From assembly GCA_020829485.1 (NCBI GenBank), contig JAIVFU010000010.1, forward strand, positions 62,062 through 125,293: 63,232 nt of DNA, in the 5' to 3' direction. Shown one piece after another: positions 54,374 to 63,195 of the stretch (position 1 is its first letter; every line of letters starts with the position of its first letter). The translations under genes were made by a program, and so were the position numbers. Source of the stretch: Nostoc sp. CHAB 5834 (GTDB lineage Bacteria > Cyanobacteriota > Cyanobacteriia > Cyanobacteriales > Nostocaceae). The notes under the pieces are model-generated. The model was not told the origin of the DNA. It did no database searches and saw nothing but the letters and a program-made list of their open reading frames with translations.

Positions 54374-54796
54374 TTAAGGTAAAACAACAGAGGTTTCTTT
54401 ACCATTGTTGTTTGCACCATTCAAGGTTGTAGCTATACTTTCAGATGGGGATTGGGTGTTGCTCGAACGGCGTGATAATTTCTTGCGTGGCTTGCCTCCC
54501 GCCTGCATATATTGCAAACTGTCTTTGCCATAATGGGTTGCCACACTCATTAACATCTTTTCAGAATAGCCGCCCAATTCTTCTTCAATTAGAGAGAGGC
54601 GACCCGTCATTTCATCCAGGGTAGAGAGTAAAGTGTTGTAGGTAGATAGCTGGGTTTGCAAGGTTTGGATGCGGCTGTCGTAGTCTGTCAAATTTAATCC
54701 GTTGCCAAATTCTAGCGTCGGGTTAATTGATCGCATTCCTGCAATTCGACGGAGAGCCTTTTCTAGACTTGGTGAACTGCGTTTTAGTCGTGCCAT
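54374..54796 (-). CDS. Conserved hypothetical protein, coiled coil
   Basis: 140 residues. Starts MARLKRSSPSLEKALRRIAG. Residues about 35-75 form a probable coiled coil (SRIQTLQTQLSTYNTLLSTL); the C-terminal 45 residues are basic then disordered. Soluble. Family not recognised. Confidence 0.6.
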   Translation of the reverse strand: MARLKRSSPSLEKALRRIAGMRSINPTLEFGNGLNLTDYDSRIQTLQTQLSTYNTLLSTLDEMTGRLSLIEEELGGYSEKMLMSVATHYGKDSLQYMQAGGKPRKKLSRRSSNTQSPSESIATTLNGANNNGKETSVVLP

Positions 54797-54919
54797 AAAA
54801 TGCGCTCCTGAAGGAAGTTATAGGATTACTACATGTACTCTAGCCAATGCAACCCTAAACTTCTCTGAGAAATAATTCGGAAAAATTAAAGCAAATTAAG
54901 ATCGACCTAATTATTTTTA

Positions 54920-55285
54920 GTGGATTGTACTGAGGTATTTATTAAATTTGTCAAAAAAGTAACATCAAATAAGCAACAGATACCTCAAAGTCGTGTTGAG
55001 GTACTTCAACATCGTTTTGAGGTACTTCAACATCGTGTTGAGGTACTTCAACATCGTGTTGAGGTACTTCAAAGTCGTGTTGAGGTACTTCAAAGTCGTG
55101 TTGAGGTACTTCAAAGTCGTGTTGAGGTACTTCAAAGTCGTGTTGAAGTACTAGATGATGAGTTTTCTTGCCTTAACCCGATTTACGGCGAAGGCGATCG
55201 CGCTCAAAAGGATCATAAATATAATTCAACTATAGGAGTCCTATTTGATTGCGTGAAAAAACTCAGCTTTACCTTAATCTTCTAG
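54920..55285 (+). CDS. Heptad-repeat ORF formed by 21-bp tandem repeats (doubtful gene)
   Basis: 121 codons, GTG start. The middle is eight copies of a heptad RVEVLQH/S encoded by 21-bp tandem repeats (about 54990-55158), which would give a perfect coiled coil. The unit length keeps the frame open on this strand. No neighbour or known family supports it, and the ends look unconserved, so it may be only a repeat. Confidence 0.35.
   Translation: MDCTEVFIKFVKKVTSNKQQIPQSRVEVLQHRFEVLQHRVEVLQHRVEVLQSRVEVLQSRVEVLQSRVEVLQSRVEVLDDEFSCLNPIYGEGDRAQKDHKYNSTIGVLFDCVKKLSFTLIF
54990..55158. repeat. 21-bp tandem repeat array, eight units
   Basis: Each unit contains GTTGAGGTACTTCAA, itself nearly palindromic, joined by CATCGT or AGTCGT. 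Confidence 0.95.
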
Positions 55286-55616
55286 AATCCTTTTGCCTCT
55301 TACCTGCCTATCGCCCTTGCGCTGCGCGCGCCACATAAGTAAGTTCAGTAATCAAACCGGATTTTTATTGTATAGTGACTAATTACAGCAGATTGCAAGT
55401 TAATGAAAGGCTGAAATAAACTTATCTTATATAGGTTTCAGCTTTTTACTTTTCTGTTTTAACCAAACACAAGAAGGCTACAAGCAGACATTAATACTTT
55501 GAGCCATTAAGTCAACGTTTTAGCTCTTTCGTTGAATGCTCTAATCAAATCAATTTGTAATTGAACATAATTTTGAACCATATTTTGACTCTTTTAAACT
55601 ATATCTGATGCAGAAT
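55286..55616. other. Intergenic region, no gene seen
   Basis: 331 bp between the repeat ORF and the GNAT gene stop; no structure of note. Confidence 0.5.
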
Positions 55617-56234
55617 TCAGTTCTGGGGCTTTCTCTTCATCGTCCAAAAGCGTAAGTTGCTTTTAGAGATGTTAACTTCTGTAACTACTGCGAAACCATG
55701 CTTGTGGTAGAAACGTACATTCTTCTCAGTAAACGTTTCAAGATAACAAGGCAGACCTTCAATATCTGCCTGTTTAAGTATCGGTTTTACAAGTGAACTA
55801 CCTATACCTTGGCTTTGATAAACAGGATCTACACCGAGAAGAGACAAGTACCAATGTTTCCACGGTGTATCACGTTTGTGATATTCCTCCATCTCATTTA
55901 GTAATTTGATTACCCGCACTGATGCATTCAAACCAAGCTGAAAGGGTAATGTATATATACCAACTTGAATCAACCGTATAAAGCTTAAAGGAAAAGCACC
56001 TGGAGGTATCCAAACTGCAACACCTTTCAAGCTATCGGCAGTTGTATAAACATGACCAGAAGCAAGACCATAGCGTACTGTAAGGGTACAGAGCCATCCT
56101 ACTAGACGTTTTCTTCTGTTACCTTCTTCAAGGATTATATAAGTGTAGGCAGGATCATTATAGAATGCCCTTCCAAGTAAGTAGTCTGCCTCATTAATCT
56201 GAGATTTATCAAAGTGAATTATTTTGCTCTCCAT
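55617..56234 (-). CDS. GNAT-family N-acetyltransferase
   Basis: 205 residues. The acetyl-CoA binding motif A is LGVDPVYQSQGIGSSLVKPI, followed by motif B LETFTEKNVRFYHKHGFAVV. The N-terminal part (FYNDPAYTYIILEEGNRRKR and VAVWIPPGAFPLS) matches a GNAT subgroup of unknown substrate. Soluble. Confidence 0.85.
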   Translation of the reverse strand: MESKIIHFDKSQINEADYLLGRAFYNDPAYTYIILEEGNRRKRLVGWLCTLTVRYGLASGHVYTTADSLKGVAVWIPPGAFPLSFIRLIQVGIYTLPFQLGLNASVRVIKLLNEMEEYHKRDTPWKHWYLSLLGVDPVYQSQGIGSSLVKPILKQADIEGLPCYLETFTEKNVRFYHKHGFAVVTEVNISKSNLRFWTMKRKPQN

Positions 56235-56264
56235 TATTTAATAGACCAGCCGTTTTTACTAATA

Positions 56265-56565
56265 TTACTGATAAAGTTCAATATGAAAGTTTGTATCACC
56301 GGGTGCAAAGTAATCCGGATACGCAAGCGCATCAATAACTTCATGAAGTATTTCAACTGGATTAGGGAATATGGTAGACCGAAAAGTTTTTCATAACCCT
56401 TACCAGTTCTTGATTTGAATTGGGGAATGTCATTGACAAAATTACCGTATAATCTGGTTTTAAAGTACCTATGTTCTGGATAGACGAATAGAGCGATCGC
56501 AGCCAGAAGCGATCGCTCTTTCCAACACCATCGGGCCAAACCCTTATTATTTCGTGAAATTTCAA
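56265..56565 (-). pseudogene. Gene remnant with a frameshift, family unknown
   Basis: A protein-like frame from 56565 (KFHEIIRVWPDGVGKSDRF, then LKPDYTVILSMTFPNSNQEL) hits a stop at 56362, while a second frame continues sensibly (NPVEILHEVIDALAYPDYFA to GDTNFHIELYQ, stop 56265-56267). Joining HIP to NPVE needs removal of one base near 56364. A HIP1 hairpin (56492-56520) lies inside and encodes KSDRFWLRSLY. No family recognised. Confidence 0.4.
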
Positions 56566-56607
56566 AAGTTTTCAGTCTACTGGTATTGCATCTACACCTA
56601 TTACTTG

Positions 56608-57036
56608 CTAAAGTTTTAGACTTAGTTCAACACGCCCTTTTTGTTGTAGTTCATCTACAAAATTAGAGGGAATATTAGTTACTTGTTTTACTTCAGCATT
56701 GACAGGTATCACAAAAATTTCATCATTTCTCTTAATGTAAGTCCGAATTTCCATGAAGTTCTGTTTATCATCCAAGATGAGATGACTGCCAAGAACTTCG
56801 CCTCTAGCTTTCAAATCTTCTTGTATCCGTCTCACATCTTCTTCGATTCTCTCAAAATCCAATACTCCTTCTTGAACACAAACTAAGTTAGAAGGTTGTC
56901 TCAATCCTTCTTTCAATCCTTCCTCAACTGCGTCTGCAAGTTGCTTAGGTAAGTTTGTGATTTTGTTGTATATCTTATCAAACTTATCTTGAAGGCTCTC
57001 TTGTTTAGTATCTTGAAGGCTCTCTTGTTCATCCAT
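56608..57036 (-). CDS. Soluble partner protein of AAA+ operon (third gene)
   Basis: 142 residues, ATG at 57036 with TAGGAG 8 bp upstream. The N-terminus has a short duplication (QESLQD twice), then an amphipathic helix (ITNLPKQLADAVEEGLKEGL), a helical middle and a beta-rich region (ENLMEIRTY-like, YIKRNDEIFVIPVNAEVK). The C-terminus TNIPSNFVDELQQKGRVEL shares the pattern T-x-I-P-x6-L-Q-x2-x-R-x-x-L with the end of the protein encoded just upstream. No membrane segment. Not recognised; probably an adaptor or substrate of the AAA+ ATPase (inference). Confidence 0.7.
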   Translation of the reverse strand: MDEQESLQDTKQESLQDKFDKIYNKITNLPKQLADAVEEGLKEGLRQPSNLVCVQEGVLDFERIEEDVRRIQEDLKARGEVLGSHLILDDKQNFMEIRTYIKRNDEIFVIPVNAEVKQVTNIPSNFVDELQQKGRVELSLKL

Positions 57037-57055
57037 GACAAACTATCTCCTAAGT

Positions 57056-57391
57056 TTACTGTGCCATTTCCAAAAGTTTCAATCTTGCTCTTTCCTGAAG
57101 TTGAAAGTTAATTTCACCAGGTATTTCTGTAGGAGGAACCTTTTCTTCTTTGTATTCAATTCTTTTCTCATCTGTCAAAACATTTTGAACCCCAATCTCC
57201 ATTCTTTTAACAACATGACCAGTTGTTTCTTTTATCAGATAAACAAAAGCATCTGACGTAACTTCAACTACTTTGTCGATACTATCAAGGATAGGGGCTA
57301 GTACTTGAGTTGCCCATGCCTTTATTTGCTTCCAAAAATAATGACCAACAGCAACTCCAACTAAAAAACTAGCTATTACCCAAAATTCCAT
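57056..57391 (-). CDS. Single-pass membrane protein of AAA+ operon (second gene)
   Basis: 111 residues from the ATG at 57391, preceded by AAGGAG at ideal spacing; an upstream in-frame start at 57442 would overlap the AAA+ gene. An N-terminal membrane helix (FWVIASFLVGVAVGHYFW) is followed by an amphipathic helical region (ILDSIDKVVEVTSDAFVYLI), a charged linker and the C-terminal TEIPGEINFQLQERARLKLL, which resembles the end of the next protein. It lies 31 bp after the AAA+ gene. Not recognised. Confidence 0.72.
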   Translation of the reverse strand: MEFWVIASFLVGVAVGHYFWKQIKAWATQVLAPILDSIDKVVEVTSDAFVYLIKETTGHVVKRMEIGVQNVLTDEKRIEYKEEKVPPTEIPGEINFQLQERARLKLLEMAQ

Positions 57392-57422
57392 AAAGTTTCT
57401 CCTTCGTAATGTTTTTATCAGA

Positions 57423-58286
57423 TCAATTGGCAATATTTTCAACTAAAATCAGTGTTTTCTCGTGTCTTTGTTTTACTTCTTTGTACCGCTCAATTTCTTC
57501 CTTGACTAAAGGCTCATCAATATTCTGTACCTTTTCAGTTAGCAACGCCAAACCTAACTTAATAGTGATATTTCTGATATCACCACCACAAAGACCGTCA
57601 CTAATATTTGCCAAATCCTCATAACTTACTTCTCTAGGTACCTTTTCCGATAAGTGAAATGTCCACAAATGTTCTCTCATTTCTAAATCTGGAGCTAAGA
57701 ACTCTATATGAAAAAGAATTCTTCTCAAAAAAGCCTCATCATAGTTATCAAAAAGATTTGTGGCAAACACAATAATCCCGTTGAACTTATCTAAGTGAGT
57801 AAGCAAAGTACTCTTGGCTGAGTTCACACCATGATCGGCTGCCAATGATGGGTTGGAGATTCTTTTACTAAGGACAGCATCAGCCTCGTCAAAGAATAGT
57901 AGGCTTTTTGTTTCTTCTGCTCTTTTGAAAACTGAAGCTAAGTTATCAGATGTTCCTCCTACAAAAGAAGATTCAAGCTCACCATAGTTAGCTCTAATAA
58001 TTGACATACCAAGTTTATGAGCAATAGCTTCAGCCGTTATACTTTTACCTGTACCTGGTATGCCAAAAAAGTTAATGCTCAGAGCACTTCCTGTTTTCAG
58101 GAACCGATTAAATTCCCAATCAATCAAAAGCTTATCTTTGTGTTTTATGTAAGCAACCATTTGGTCAATTTGCTCAAGCGTACTTTTGGATAGCACTACT
58201 TCTTCCAGAGTCCACTTAGGCTGCTCTACTAAAATCTGTGCTGTTTCTTGCTTCTTTGATGCGTCTTTGATAATTTCGTACTCCAT
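57423..58286 (-). CDS. Classical AAA+ ATPase (SpoVK/COG0464-like), first gene of a three-gene operon
   Basis: 287 residues from the ATG at 58286, preceded by AAGG; an upstream start at 58322 is weaker. Walker A FFGIPGTGKSITAEAIAHKL, pore-like loop YGELESSFVGGTSDN, Walker B SLLFFDEADAVLSKR, sensor 1 GIIVFATNLFDNYD, and arginine-finger-like FLRRILFHIEF are all present. Sensor 2/lid region SDGLCGGDIRNITIKLGLAL. No protease or nuclease domain is attached. It probably acts as a ring remodelase on partner proteins; the two downstream genes are the obvious candidates. Divergent from the NACHT gene. Confidence 0.85.
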   Translation of the reverse strand: MEYEIIKDASKKQETAQILVEQPKWTLEEVVLSKSTLEQIDQMVAYIKHKDKLLIDWEFNRFLKTGSALSINFFGIPGTGKSITAEAIAHKLGMSIIRANYGELESSFVGGTSDNLASVFKRAEETKSLLFFDEADAVLSKRISNPSLAADHGVNSAKSTLLTHLDKFNGIIVFATNLFDNYDEAFLRRILFHIEFLAPDLEMREHLWTFHLSEKVPREVSYEDLANISDGLCGGDIRNITIKLGLALLTEKVQNIDEPLVKEEIERYKEVKQRHEKTLILVENIAN

Positions 58287-58898
58287 GTTAATACCTTGTA
58301 TTGTTTTACATTGCCATGCCACACTGGCATTGAGTTAGGTCGAGGGAGAGTATTGGAGGTTGAACCGAGATGCGTGTTTTTTCCAGCAAGATGACCCCAA
58401 AAGGCTTGATTTATCGTTACCAAACACGGCTTTTTTGACCTGACTGTAACAAATTATCAAACTCATATAGGACAAGAGTTTTCAGACCATCTTGCAGGTT
58501 TTTACATGAATCTCGGTTTCATGCCCATAAGGTTTACCTCATCAGGGATCAACTGATGGAGGGGTATTGCAACAATTAGCAAATGGCGCATTGTTATGAA
58601 TTGTTGCAATACCCGTGGGAAGATGACTAGTATTTTGGGAATAGCAGTCACCGTAACCTCTCAATCAGCTTATTCCTATTCTCACAGTCTGATACTTACA
58701 CTTGGGTATTGAAAAAAGGTGACTTTTGTATAGGTTTAGTATAACTTTGGCTTTAAACTTAAAATGGAGATAGCTTTAATATTTGAAAAACATCTCGATT
58801 TTGTAAAAAATCTGGCGCAGAAAACCGTAAGATTCCCATTTTTTGAATTGGAAGTTCAGTTTGTTCCTTTAAAAGTCAGATCCTATGACTGTTTAACT
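58287..58898. other. Divergent region between AAA+ operon and NACHT gene
   Basis: Holds both promoters and the large dyad at 58562-58614. The frame upstream of the chosen NACHT start (58764-58898) is open but looks non-conserved. Confidence 0.6.
58562..58614. promoter_or_regulatory. Large perfect dyad between divergent genes
   Basis: Arms GGGTATTGCAACAATT and AATTGTTGCAATACCC (16 bp, perfect) separated by 21 bp that contains a smaller AATG/CATT dyad. It is not downstream of any gene, so a terminator is unlikely; an operator or MITE-like palindrome fits better. Confidence 0.6.
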
Positions 58899-61334
58899 AT
58901 GCCTAGAAACTCGCTCAAAGCCTGCAAAGCAGGTATCAGTAAAGCAAAAATAGCTTTAACTGGTAAAAATTGGACACAGGCAAAACTAGCACTACAGGCT
59001 AAGATAACTCGTCAGCCAGTGTTAAACTTCTTTGCAGGTAGAGGAGTAGCACAAGAAAATTTTCTTGAAATTTGCAACCTGCTGGATCTAGATTGGCGAG
59101 AAATCGTTGATATAGACAAAAATTTAACTAATTCAGTTACTGTATTAGAGGAAGCTAATGCCAGTATTGATACTTTAGTGGAAGAGGTACGTAAAAAGAT
59201 AAAGCCGTATATTCAAGAACGTTGTAGTTCAATACGGGTGCTGGATATGAACCAGCCTATTACATTAGATAATATTTACACTTATGTCAATATTTTGGAG
59301 AAAATCACTGGACTCCGACGGGTAGAAATTGCGGATCTGTTAAATAACTTTGATCCAGAGAAATTCGACCGTTTTAGACTCAGCGGCGTAACTGAGGAGC
59401 CAGTGCCAGGGCTCCAAGCAGTGCAACAGTATAGTAAGTTGATAGTATTTGGTAAACCGGGAGCAGGAAAGACTACATTTTTAAAATATCTGGCAATTCA
59501 GTGTATCGATGATCATGTTCAGAAGAATCGCTTCCCAGTTTTTATTATACTGAAAGATTTTGCAGAAAAACCCGAACAGCCGAGCATTCTGGAGTATATT
59601 ACCCACCAGTTATCTATTTGTAAGTTAACAGATGCCAGCATAAAAGTAGAGCAACTGTTAGAACAGGGGAGGGTATTGATCTTGCTAGACGGGCTAGATG
59701 AAGTAGGGGAAAAGGATACGAAGAGGGTTTTAAAGCAAATTCAAGATTTTTCCAACCAGTTTCATACTAATCACTTTGTCATCACTTGTCGTTTTGCTGC
59801 TAAGGAATACACGTTTGAAAAGTTCACCGAAGTAGAAATTGCAGATTTTAACGAAGACCAAATTGCCACTTTTACTCAAAACTGGTTTCAGTTAAGTGAT
59901 CCAGTTAAAGGTGAGCGTTTCATCCAAAAACTGAAAGAAAACAAGCCAATTCAAGAATTGGCAACTAATCCCCTACTATTAACTTTGCTTTGTTTGGTAT
60001 TTGGCGAAGCTGGAAAATTTCCAGATCATCGTTCCGAACTTTACACCGAAGGCATAAATATATTGCTGAAAAAATGGGATGTCAACCGGAACATTGAGCG
60101 AGATCAGGTCTATAAAAATCTATCCTTACAGCGTAAGAAAGACTTGCTGAGCTACCTTGCTCTAACCACTTTTGAGCAGAATCACTATTTCTTTAAGCAA
60201 AAGACGGTTCAAGGGTACATTACTGACTTCATCTCTGACTTACAAGAAGCTTGTACTGAAACGAAGGAATTGCAATTAGATAGCGAAGCTGTGTTGAAGT
60301 CGATTGAAGCGCAGTATGGATTACTGGTGGAACGGGCTAAGGGCATTTTTTCATTCTCCCATCTTACATTTCATGAGTATTTCGCAGCTAATAAGATTGC
60401 CACTATTTCTGACTTAGAGAAATTAAAAAATGCTTTGCAAAATCTGGCTAGCCATATTACTGAAAAGCGTTGGCGGGAAATCTTTTTGTTGACATCTGAG
60501 ATGTTGGCAAGTCCAGATTATTTGTTGCGCTGCATGAAACAACAAGTCAATGCACTTCTATCAACTGATGAAGATCTAGTGCGCTTTCACTTGTGGGTTG
60601 ATGAAAAATCTTGTTCTGTAAAAGCGCCCTATAAACCCGCCGCAATTCGAGCCTTCTACTGCAACGTTGTCCACGATCTCAACTATGAGCTTGCCTACGA
60701 CCTGGCCTCCGACGGCGAGGGTGAAGTCGCCGTCGCCTTCATTCATACCCTTGCCTACGACCCTAACATCGACCTTGACCTCGACCTCAAACGCGCTATC
60801 GCCTTTGCCGAGCTCCTCAATCTCAACAACGAGTCCAACCGTGCTCTTGCTTTTGCCCAGCTCTTCAACTGCGACCGCGACATCAACAACTACAATGCCT
60901 TCGTCCGTGCTCTCGACTTTGACCTTGCCCTGGACCTCGTCCTTGTCCGTGTCCTTGATATCTCCAGTCACTACATCAGCGAGTTTGACATCACCAGCAA
61001 CTACGCCAGTAACCTCGACCACACATTGCAGTATACGCTGCTACAACTCAAAAACCAACTTCCCAACCTAGAGAGCGATTCAGAAGAGTACAAGCAATGG
61101 TGGCAGAAAAATGGTCAAGCTTGGACTCAACAACTCAAAACCGCAATGATTCTACATCGCAATATTGGTTCTAACTGGCAGCTTAACAACTCCCAAAAGG
61201 ATCTTTTGAAGCAGTACTACAACGTTAATAAGTTGTTGGTTGATTGCCTTAATAGCGATTGTAAAGTGAGCCACGAATTAAGGCAAGAGATTGAAAATAC
61301 ATTACTATTGTCAAGTAGCGGTATGCTGAAGTAA
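58899..61334 (+). CDS. NACHT-family STAND NTPase with N-terminal HTH
   Basis: 811 residues from the ATG at 58899, the start that gives the family-like RNSLKACKAGISKAKIALTG; a start at 58764 adds 45 residues. The N-terminal HTH-like domain (about 1-72: WTQAKLALQAKITRQPVLNF) precedes a linker and the NACHT module: Walker A VFGKPGAGKTTFLKYLAIQC, Walker B VLILLDGLDEVGEKD, and ATNPLLLTLLCLVFG. An alpha-helical region with FSFSHLTFHEYFAANKI follows. The segment about 575-708 is a D/L/A-rich irregular repeat (DLDLDLKRAIAF, ALDFDLALDL) encoded by GC-rich DNA. Bacterial NACHT proteins can be phage sensors; no effector domain is evident here. Confidence 0.85.
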   Translation: MPRNSLKACKAGISKAKIALTGKNWTQAKLALQAKITRQPVLNFFAGRGVAQENFLEICNLLDLDWREIVDIDKNLTNSVTVLEEANASIDTLVEEVRKKIKPYIQERCSSIRVLDMNQPITLDNIYTYVNILEKITGLRRVEIADLLNNFDPEKFDRFRLSGVTEEPVPGLQAVQQYSKLIVFGKPGAGKTTFLKYLAIQCIDDHVQKNRFPVFIILKDFAEKPEQPSILEYITHQLSICKLTDASIKVEQLLEQGRVLILLDGLDEVGEKDTKRVLKQIQDFSNQFHTNHFVITCRFAAKEYTFEKFTEVEIADFNEDQIATFTQNWFQLSDPVKGERFIQKLKENKPIQELATNPLLLTLLCLVFGEAGKFPDHRSELYTEGINILLKKWDVNRNIERDQVYKNLSLQRKKDLLSYLALTTFEQNHYFFKQKTVQGYITDFISDLQEACTETKELQLDSEAVLKSIEAQYGLLVERAKGIFSFSHLTFHEYFAANKIATISDLEKLKNALQNLASHITEKRWREIFLLTSEMLASPDYLLRCMKQQVNALLSTDEDLVRFHLWVDEKSCSVKAPYKPAAIRAFYCNVVHDLNYELAYDLASDGEGEVAVAFIHTLAYDPNIDLDLDLKRAIAFAELLNLNNESNRALAFAQLFNCDRDINNYNAFVRALDFDLALDLVLVRVLDISSHYISEFDITSNYASNLDHTLQYTLLQLKNQLPNLESDSEEYKQWWQKNGQAWTQQLKTAMILHRNIGSNWQLNNSQKDLLKQYYNVNKLLVDCLNSDCKVSHELRQEIENTLLLSSSGMLK
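60619..61025. other. GC-rich repetitive segment inside the NACHT gene
   Basis: Codon use changes sharply to C/G-ending codons (CTC, GAC, GCC) for about 400 bp, and frames on both strands stay open, unlike the AT-rich flanks. Confidence 0.8.
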
Positions 61335-62440: not shown

Positions 62441-62680
62441 ATGATGGGTACTGACATGGTATCGATCCCAATTACTTTGGAACAACTCATTACGGCGGTA
62501 CAACAGTTGCAGCCAGACGAACGAGCAAAAGTCGCTAGAGCCTTGATTCAAATAGATTTACGTTCAGATTTGACGGCTTTAATTCAAGAACTTTATGCCG
62601 AACCCCCCGTAAATGAGATTACAGACGATGAAATCAGGGCTGAAATTAAAGCTGTGCGTCAGCAATCCCAGCAGGTCTGA
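62441..62680 (+). CDS. Antitoxin of a PIN-type toxin-antitoxin pair
   Basis: 79 residues; an internal ATG at 62456 (MVSIPITLEQLITAVQQL) is a possible start. Helical and acidic C-terminus (NEITDDEIRAEIKAVRQQ). Its stop overlaps the toxin start as TGATG. Size, helical character and position fit antitoxins that accompany COG1569 PIN toxins. Confidence 0.75.
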   Translation: MMGTDMVSIPITLEQLITAVQQLQPDERAKVARALIQIDLRSDLTALIQELYAEPPVNEITDDEIRAEIKAVRQQSQQV

Positions 62681-63195
62681 TGTTGCGAGTGGTCATCGAC
62701 ACCAACATTTGGATTCGCATTTTGCTCAAAGGGCAAGTTACATTGCCGATTTTGGCAGCATTTAATGAGGATAAATTCCAGTTGGTAATGAGTCAACCCC
62801 TTATGGAAGAACTCCATCTTGTTTGGAATCGCCCCCGTTTAAGAAAGCGGATTGACTCTAGTCAGGCGATTCGCCTAGAACAACAATTGCAGTACCGCGC
62901 CTTATGGGTTGAGTTGAAAACTGTTCCGCCTAATTGTCGAGATCCCAAAGATTTACCTGTGTTGGCTACAGCGATTGATGGCAAAGCGGGGATTATCGTA
63001 TCTGGGGATGATGACTTGCGGGCTGATGATGGCTTGAGAGGGGTAATGGCAAGCTATGGCATTCAGTTATTGGGTGTTCATTCTTTCCTGAAATATCTAG
63101 ATGAAACGCGATGTGCAACTTATTCTGTCACAAGACTATCAAACTGTAATGGTTCCAAACCAAACAGACGATTTAGCCAGACACAAACAGTATGA
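62680..63195 (+). CDS. PIN-domain toxin (COG1569 type)
   Basis: 171 residues. The PIN active site is seen in LRVVIDTNIWIRILLKG, a conserved Glu in MSQPLMEELHLVW, and acidic residues in PPNCRDPKDLPVLATAIDG and VSGDDDLR. PIN toxins are Mg2+-dependent RNases. Family members usually end soon after the LGVHSFLKYL motif; the last 30 residues here look unrelated, suggesting a frameshift or read-through at the true end. Confidence 0.85.
   Translation: MLRVVIDTNIWIRILLKGQVTLPILAAFNEDKFQLVMSQPLMEELHLVWNRPRLRKRIDSSQAIRLEQQLQYRALWVELKTVPPNCRDPKDLPVLATAIDGKAGIIVSGDDDLRADDGLRGVMASYGIQLLGVHSFLKYLDETRCATYSVTRLSNCNGSKPNRRFSQTQTV

Follow-up and report, generated by a model that had tools for sequence, protein, structure and literature searches.

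An AAA+ ATPase operon with an exchanged small membrane gene in Nostoc and distant bacteria: a candidate conflict module

A 63,232-nucleotide stretch of DNA from Nostoc sp. CHAB 5834 (the window) carries an operon of three genes, which encode an AAA+ ATPase (AAA), a small membrane-anchored partner (mem) and a soluble partner (sol). Sequence comparison between loci shows mem to be a hypervariable, exchanged cassette. We tentatively read the operon as a mobile AAA+ conflict module under NLR-like control, in which mem would be a polymorphic membrane effector or sensor. The genes and the region in front of them are as follows:

57423..58286, minus strand: AAA gene, 287 aa (open reading frame and Pfam PF00004)
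57056..57391, minus strand: mem gene, membrane-anchored partner, 111 aa, downstream of AAA
56608..57036, minus strand: sol gene, soluble partner, 142 aa, downstream of mem
58287..58898, no strand: intergenic region between AAA and the neighbouring NACHT gene, presumed control region, probably with a promoter role

AAA and mem are separated by 31 bp, mem and sol by 19 bp. The original prediction took the three genes to be one unit with a strong Shine-Dalgarno site before each. The strong sites are there for mem and sol (AGGAG-type) but not for AAA, which has merely AAGG. The unit itself was borne out: in all 24 loci with an AAA identity of at least 65% (the core loci), mem and then sol lie downstream of AAA on the same strand (L066 and L067 among them come from a single assembly, as duplicates of each other). 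The AAA-mem-sol operon is clearly real and beyond chance. We found no description of such a system in the literature searched, and neither mem nor sol has a family match, which agrees with the original statement that no described system has this composition.

The loci came from a scan with an AAA alignment, one genome per species, which gave 43 loci: the 24 core loci (L061-L084), 10 other cyanobacterial loci with 39-48% AAA identity, two from Thermoguttaceae, six of Oscillospiraceae type (one from an uncultured bacterium) and one from Fructilactobacillus. In addition, among the 28 fetched loci with a full-length sol, AAA was present in 24, mem in 25 and both in 24; homologues of the three genes do travel together. 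The four loci without AAA in the fetched DNA were L031 (STAND gene and mem present), L044 (contig end), L050 (piece of a STAND gene, mem absent) and L052; the last belongs to the L072 locus, whose AAA gene is outside the DNA that was fetched. L031/L122 (L122:1827-4196), which keeps STAND, mem and sol without AAA, and L050/L148, which has the STAND piece and sol without AAA, count against the conflict-module reading. The distribution of sol is patchy: at the level of the order it occurs in 30 of 388 genomes, where two of the matches are weak and partial, and at the level of the family in 12 of 217, where two are partial.

Outside the cyanobacteria, all six Oscillospiraceae-type loci have AAA, a mem-related small membrane protein (E 2e-9 to 5e-6 with the mem profile) and a third small gene in the same order. 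The same three-gene order was found on a Moraxella osloensis plasmid, flanked by two IS transposase genes; its second gene matched the mem profile (E 5e-9) and its third the profile of the Oscillospiraceae third gene (E 2e-6). This plasmid was the sole carrier of the order among the five plasmid records inspected. On a Synechococcus plasmid (L125:1942-4373), a related AAA is preceded by three small genes that match no profile made here.

A second cyanobacterial operon type (L103:5954-9020, L094:3888-8960, L095:5847-8543) has a longer AAA and small proteins of ∼179 aa (soluble) and of 162, 148 and 109 aa (N-terminal hydrophobic helices), several of which end in strand-LPxx(I/V)R-helix. Among 10 loci with an AAA of this type, the 179- and 162-aa members were present in seven; L089, at a contig end, had the 148-aa protein only, and no second-type small proteins were recognised in L086 and L101. 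The C-termini of the second-type AAA proteins (L085, L086, L089, L090, L091, L094, L101, L102) resemble the end of the small partners (P 8e-5 with the 162-aa family; controls 0.26 and 0.35). The Thermoguttaceae operons (L087:4783-8915, L093:4752-8918) adjoin a related AAA and encode two membrane proteins, an alpha/beta-hydrolase-like protein and a 176-209-aa protein with similar C-terminal ends.

On the other side of the intergenic region, the operon of the window faces a divergent STAND gene:

58764..61334, plus strand: NACHT-NCH2 STAND gene (Pfam NACHT 2.5e-16, NCH2 3.5e-36)

The likely start of this gene is 58899, the start of the Scytonema hofmannii orthologue, which is 93% identical and occupies the same place in L141. 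We did not find the NACHT gene among the ORFs of the other loci compared. The NACHT neighbour that the original prediction pointed to is rare: of the 24 core loci, 21 extend far enough upstream to be judged, and in 13 of them the gene upstream on the opposite strand is instead an NB-ARC STAND gene of ∼460 aa. Ten of these 13 genes are intact and lie 59-353 bp from the AAA reading frame; three are broken or cut. The NB-ARC STAND family is multicopy (in 41 of 47 genomes tested, with at least 35 copies in one), and we estimate that adjacency to AAA by chance would be rare per locus (roughly 1%, assuming ten copies in 6 Mb). Further copies, in L104, L110, L117 and L119, adjoin differing small operons of AAA with zinc-ribbon-like proteins, of GTPases, or of a membrane protein with AAA.

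Other signalling genes were found upstream as well. A histidine kinase and a LuxR-type regulator take the place in two Nostoc loci (L062, L065), the upstream gene of L147 encodes a TPR protein with an N-terminus like that of the STAND proteins (profile match, E 6e-10), and in L069 an EAD4-NB-ARC-TPR gene lies at a distance of 1.5 kb. Because this place is occupied by differing proteins of signal transduction, of which one is certainly a regulator of transcription, a sensing or regulatory role seems probable, which suggests that the upstream gene is an exchangeable sensor or regulator. In our reading the NB-ARC STAND N-terminus resembles an HTH, and the NACHT N-terminus is possibly an XRE-like HTH, with HTH_3 below the Pfam cut-off (20.7 bits versus 23 in L141; 14.6 in the window). 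Three observations count against the conflict-module reading here: the N-termini of the NB-ARC and NACHT proteins had no Pfam HTH match at cut-off, the STAND N-terminal profile did not match the NACHT protein, and there was no STAND-family gene in the upstream flanks of L066, L067, L068, L070 and L077, where most of the other upstream ORFs are without annotation.

The AAA protein is a classical AAA+ ATPase (Pfam PF00004, E 1.4e-24) with a short N-terminal stretch and no protease or substrate domain. As originally predicted, it is complete and lacks an effector domain: Pfam finds the AAA domain alone, and Walker A, Walker B, sensor 1 and the RR pair are invariant in 33/33 aligned AAA sequences. 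Its motifs are these:

58041..58064, minus strand: Walker A (GIPGTGKS, residues 75-82); G75, G78, T79, G80, K81 and S82 invariant, 33/33
57957..57965, minus strand: core of pore loop 1 (F108-V109-G110); G110 invariant, position 108 F/L/Y in 8/23/2 of 33
57879..57896, minus strand: Walker B (FFDEAD, residues 131-136); D133 and E134 invariant, 33/33
57720..57725, minus strand: arginine pair R188-R189; invariant, 33/33

We take F108-V109-G110 to be pore loop 1 by comparison with known AAA motifs, and R188-R189 is probably the arginine finger. The solved structures nearest to AAA by sequence are p97/Cdc48. The match to the FtsH model was low (65.4 bits, cut-off 600), and the window AAA differs from FtsH in being a 287-aa protein of the AAA domain alone, with no fused C-terminal metalloprotease.

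We then turned to the two small proteins, neither of which had a family match better than E 0.01 in Pfam, NCBIfam, PHROGs or PADLOC, or a match better than E 0.06 to solved structures by sequence. No catalytic toxin domain was recognised in either. In the AF2 model of mem (m89f08fd7bf08, pLDDT 87.6) a long helix is followed by strand-strand-strand-helix-strand, and in that of sol (m2eab33e14133, pLDDT 76.4) the C-terminal domain consists of a helix, the same order of elements as in mem and an extra short strand:

57281..57382, minus strand: mem long helix (residues 4-37), with the membrane span in its first part (AF2 model)
57065..57265, minus strand: mem beta-beta-beta-alpha-beta domain (residues 43-109; AF2 model)
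57059..57130, minus strand: mem C-terminal tail (from TEIP), the final helix and strand of the domain
56617..56880, minus strand: sol helix and beta-beta-beta-alpha-beta domain (residues 53-140; AF2 model)
56611..56679, minus strand: sol C-terminal tail (from TNIP), with conserved residues

The hydropathy of mem peaks at 1.5 at residues 1-19, which is marginal in the window sequence. Its domain is predicted with strands at 43-54, 60-70 and 76-85, a helix at 92-100 and a strand at 103-109 (pLDDT 90-97 in 10-residue blocks), that of sol with strands at 80-89, 94-103 and 106-115, a helix at 124-133 and a strand at 135-140.

The two proteins had been predicted to end in a similar sequence that might serve as a docking element. 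The tails quoted for this are present letter for letter but stop short of the protein ends (mem continues with EMAQ, sol with SLKL). They are conserved among homologues: P91 of mem is invariant in 28/28 sequences, and in sol N121 and E137 are invariant and P123 is at least 90% conserved (58 sequences). The sol homologues comprise 59 proteins at E ≤ 0.001, namely the window's own, one at 85% identity and 57 at 40-81%. The idea of a loose docking peptide did not survive, as AF2 places the tail as the last helix and strand of a folded domain in both proteins.

Is the similarity between the two tails genuine? Profiles were compared for 55 family pairs, with reversed controls. The direct mem-sol match (P 0.0017) was not above its reversed controls (0.00062 and 0.00085), so that sequence similarity alone does not carry this part of the original prediction. 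The match gains support because the elements follow in the same order in the two AF2 models and because, in the second cyanobacterial operon type, the soluble 179-aa and the membrane 162-aa protein share an end (P ∼1e-7, just over that end; reversed controls 0.65-0.74). Moreover, mem matched the Oscillospiraceae mem (P 1e-11), the 162-aa (8e-7) and the 109-aa membrane protein (9e-7), and the 179-aa protein matched the 148-aa one (9e-6). In these five matching pairs the reversed controls were 0.017 or worse, except for 0.006 with mem versus the Oscillospiraceae mem. The alpha/beta-hydrolase-like protein of the Thermoguttaceae has a weakly similar end (8e-5 versus the 148-aa family; two sequences only). 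For sol there was no clear match to other families (best P 0.034-0.04), and the similarity of the Oscillospiraceae third gene to sol was not above reversed controls. Since the mem-sol match is no better than its reversed controls and sol has no clear match elsewhere, the common domain stays a prediction, with fair support across the wider family and moderate support in the mem-sol pair. The beta-beta-beta-alpha-beta fold, for which the searched libraries contain no family model, is a candidate new domain.

We next asked how the parts of the operon evolve with respect to each other. The distances of AAA, sol and STAND agree mutually (r 0.88-0.94), while those of mem agree weakly with the others (0.2-0.5). 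Over 24 loci the pairwise distances gave r 0.90 for AAA-sol, 0.27 for AAA-mem and 0.30 for mem-sol; the least agreement was found for the mem beta domain (r 0.12 with AAA). In nine loci with an intact adjoining STAND gene, r was 0.94 for STAND-AAA and 0.89 for STAND-sol, versus 0.34, 0.41 and 0.48 for mem with AAA, sol and STAND. With the mem alignment (23 sequences), both the AAA tree and the sol tree are rejected (delta lnL 194 and 122; p-SH 0; p-AU below 1e-8). Tested on the AAA and sol data, the tree of the other gene is not rejected by p-SH (0.054, 0.117) but is rejected by p-AU (0.003, 0.015), in an AU test of 5000 replicates, few according to the IQ-TREE warning. The correlation of mem with AAA and with sol was nevertheless above nearly all permutations (exceeded in 1 and 0 of 5000). 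Thus mem is not fully uncoupled from AAA and sol, which counts against the conflict-module reading.

DNA identity was followed along the operon in 11 pairs. For L082 versus L083 and L075 it was 0.92-1.0 in AAA, 0.47-0.77 in mem and ∼0.85-0.94 in sol. For L083 versus L075, 0.93 was held into mem and fell only near the mem end and in the following gap, and Nostocales pairs showed a shallower drop over mem. For L064 versus L063, mem (0.73) was no more divergent than sol (0.72), which counts against the conflict-module reading. Between the window and S. hofmannii, identity was 0.94 downstream of sol, 0.92 in AAA, 0.94 in the AAA-NACHT intergenic region and 0.96 in NACHT; it was 0.69 in mem and 0.60 in the first 52 codons of sol, with 0.88 in the remainder of sol. 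Joint exchange of mem and the sol N-terminus failed as a rule over 27 loci (partial r -0.18). When AAA and the sol N-terminus were accounted for, mem distances stayed correlated with those of the sol C-terminal domain (partial r 0.33; 6 of 3000 permutations), in a kind of test, the partial Mantel test, that can be over-liberal.

Copies of the mem domain also occur next to mem. In L072 (9252-11118) a tandem array of 331-bp units with helix-less mem-domain copies lies between mem and sol, each unit consisting of a mem-like gene end and a stretch that resembles the sol start, and in L043 a 66-aa ORF with two mem-like ends lies at the same place. These may be donors or by-products of mem exchange.

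What could such an operon do? In the conflict-module reading, which we favour tentatively, an upstream sensor or regulator would turn on or arm the operon. In the window this role would fall to the NACHT protein; in other loci it would fall to an NB-ARC STAND protein, to a two-component pair or to a TPR protein that has the N-terminal domain of the STAND proteins. The bare AAA+ ATPase would assemble on the cytosolic beta-beta-beta-alpha-beta domains of mem and sol and would pull on or rearrange their assembly. At the membrane, mem would act as a polymorphic effector or sensor, with sol as its cytosolic counterpart that may cap, deliver or release it. Conflict is preferred to housekeeping because of the patchy spread, the plasmid carriage, the STAND/NACHT partners and the single exchanged component, and we infer defence as the purpose. 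As mem is the exchanged part, it is the likely face of an arms race, and AAA, sol and the sensor gene would be the more constant chassis. A hypervariable mem would likewise suit a surface on which phages or predators exert selection, with no killing role; this counts against the reading, as do the lack of a recognised catalytic toxin domain in mem and sol, the similarities of mem and of the Oscillospiraceae third gene to sol that do not exceed reversed controls, and the failed rule of joint exchange of mem and the sol N-terminus. If the reading is true, bacterial NLR-type immunity would gain a membrane branch driven by an AAA+ motor, in which the exchange of the polymorphic component is legible straight from genomes. 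It would also offer a testable pairing of mem with sol and AAA, and a case of a sensor gene, a motor and a membrane part that evolve under differing rules within one small locus. It is possible, but more doubtful, that the operons represent an undescribed, phylum-crossing immune machine built of an AAA+ motor, partners sharing one new domain, interchangeable NLR-like sensors and swapped mem cassettes, sometimes with helix-less spare copies.

Alternatively, the operon could be a quality-control or stress module for membrane proteins like Msp1, FtsH or PSP, with mem as tether, sol as adaptor and AAA pulling damaged proteins out once the regulator gene has signalled stress. The closeness of AAA to p97/Cdc48, its canonical motifs and hydrophobic-Gly pore loop, the membrane anchor of mem and the two-component regulators in two loci would all suit this. 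We nevertheless consider it unlikely, as a patchy distribution, carriage on a plasmid beside IS elements, STAND/NACHT partners and an exchanged membrane gene would be unusual for a housekeeping tether.

Less likely again is a polymorphic toxin-immunity system, in which mem would be a membrane-disrupting toxin, sol an immunity-like inhibitor with the same domain, and AAA a threshold-setting chaperone that removes sol. The exchange of mem, the helix-less copies adjoining it and its residual link with the sol C-terminal domain would be expected of such a system, but that link comes from the possibly over-liberal partial Mantel test and there is no known toxin fold. Moreover, a dedicated immunity protein should track its toxin, whereas sol tracks AAA and not mem.

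C-terminal recognition by an AAA protein is familiar from ESCRT-III. In Vps4/ESCRT-III and PspA-AAA associations the AAA gene adjoins membrane-associated partners (PMC11237479), as it does here. Paralogous membrane-associated subunits might likewise form a scaffold that a Vps4-like AAA takes apart via their C-terminal ends, and the second cyanobacterial type would fit, with its AAA accompanied by as many as four small proteins, several of which have the C-terminal end in common. The predicted folds differ, however: mem and sol are beta-rich in the AF2 models and not helical hairpins of the ESCRT-III kind, and no Snf7/PspA or MIT match was found by Pfam in the window operon, which makes this remodelling improbable.

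The IetAS anti-phage system consists of an AAA ATPase, IetA, and a subtilisin-like protease, IetS. The operon shares the AAA family with it, and IetA is the best match of AAA both in PADLOC (E 9e-37, with no curated cut-off shown there) and in NCBIfam, where the model is named IteA. That the operon is a divergent IetAS, with the protease exchanged for mem and sol, is the least probable of these explanations, as AAA is far under the NCBIfam cut-off (120.7 bits versus 510) and Pfam, run on six window proteins from 54374 to 61334, picked up no subtilase. The operon also differs from IetAS in an AAA that is shorter at the N-terminus and in its partners, a membrane and a soluble protein without family model.

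The conflict-module reading can be set beside other known systems. In CBASS with TRIP13 and HORMA, an AAA remodeller acts on a small folded partner. The window operon is similar in this pairing, and AAA has a weak PADLOC match to TRIP13 (E 9e-9), but one of its partners is membrane-anchored; HORMA had no Pfam match in mem or sol and did not appear among the fold comparisons listed, although these leave room for it. For the NTP-dependent ternary conflict systems of multicellular prokaryotes (MoxR-vWA-VMAP, iSTAND, FtsH), Kaur et al. 2020 (PMC7159879) propose an AAA+ chaperone as threshold-setter with variable effectors. The AAA+ chaperone and the STAND-type partners are alike; the window differs in having a classical AAA (PF00004) rather than a MoxR type and in varying by exchange of a small membrane gene, and there is no vWA in the six window proteins scanned. 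In DGR-diversified NACHT and ternary systems, a reverse transcriptase creates variation in a target repeat (PMC10907252). These too have a hypervariable component tied to NACHT or AAA genes, whereas here a small membrane gene is replaced, whole or in part.

Two further features were noticed in the window. A short ORF at 54920-55285 of the window consists of a repeated VEVLQSR-type unit derived from a DNA tandem repeat. At 62441-63195, two adjoining small ORFs resemble what we take to be an antitoxin and PIN-type toxin pair.
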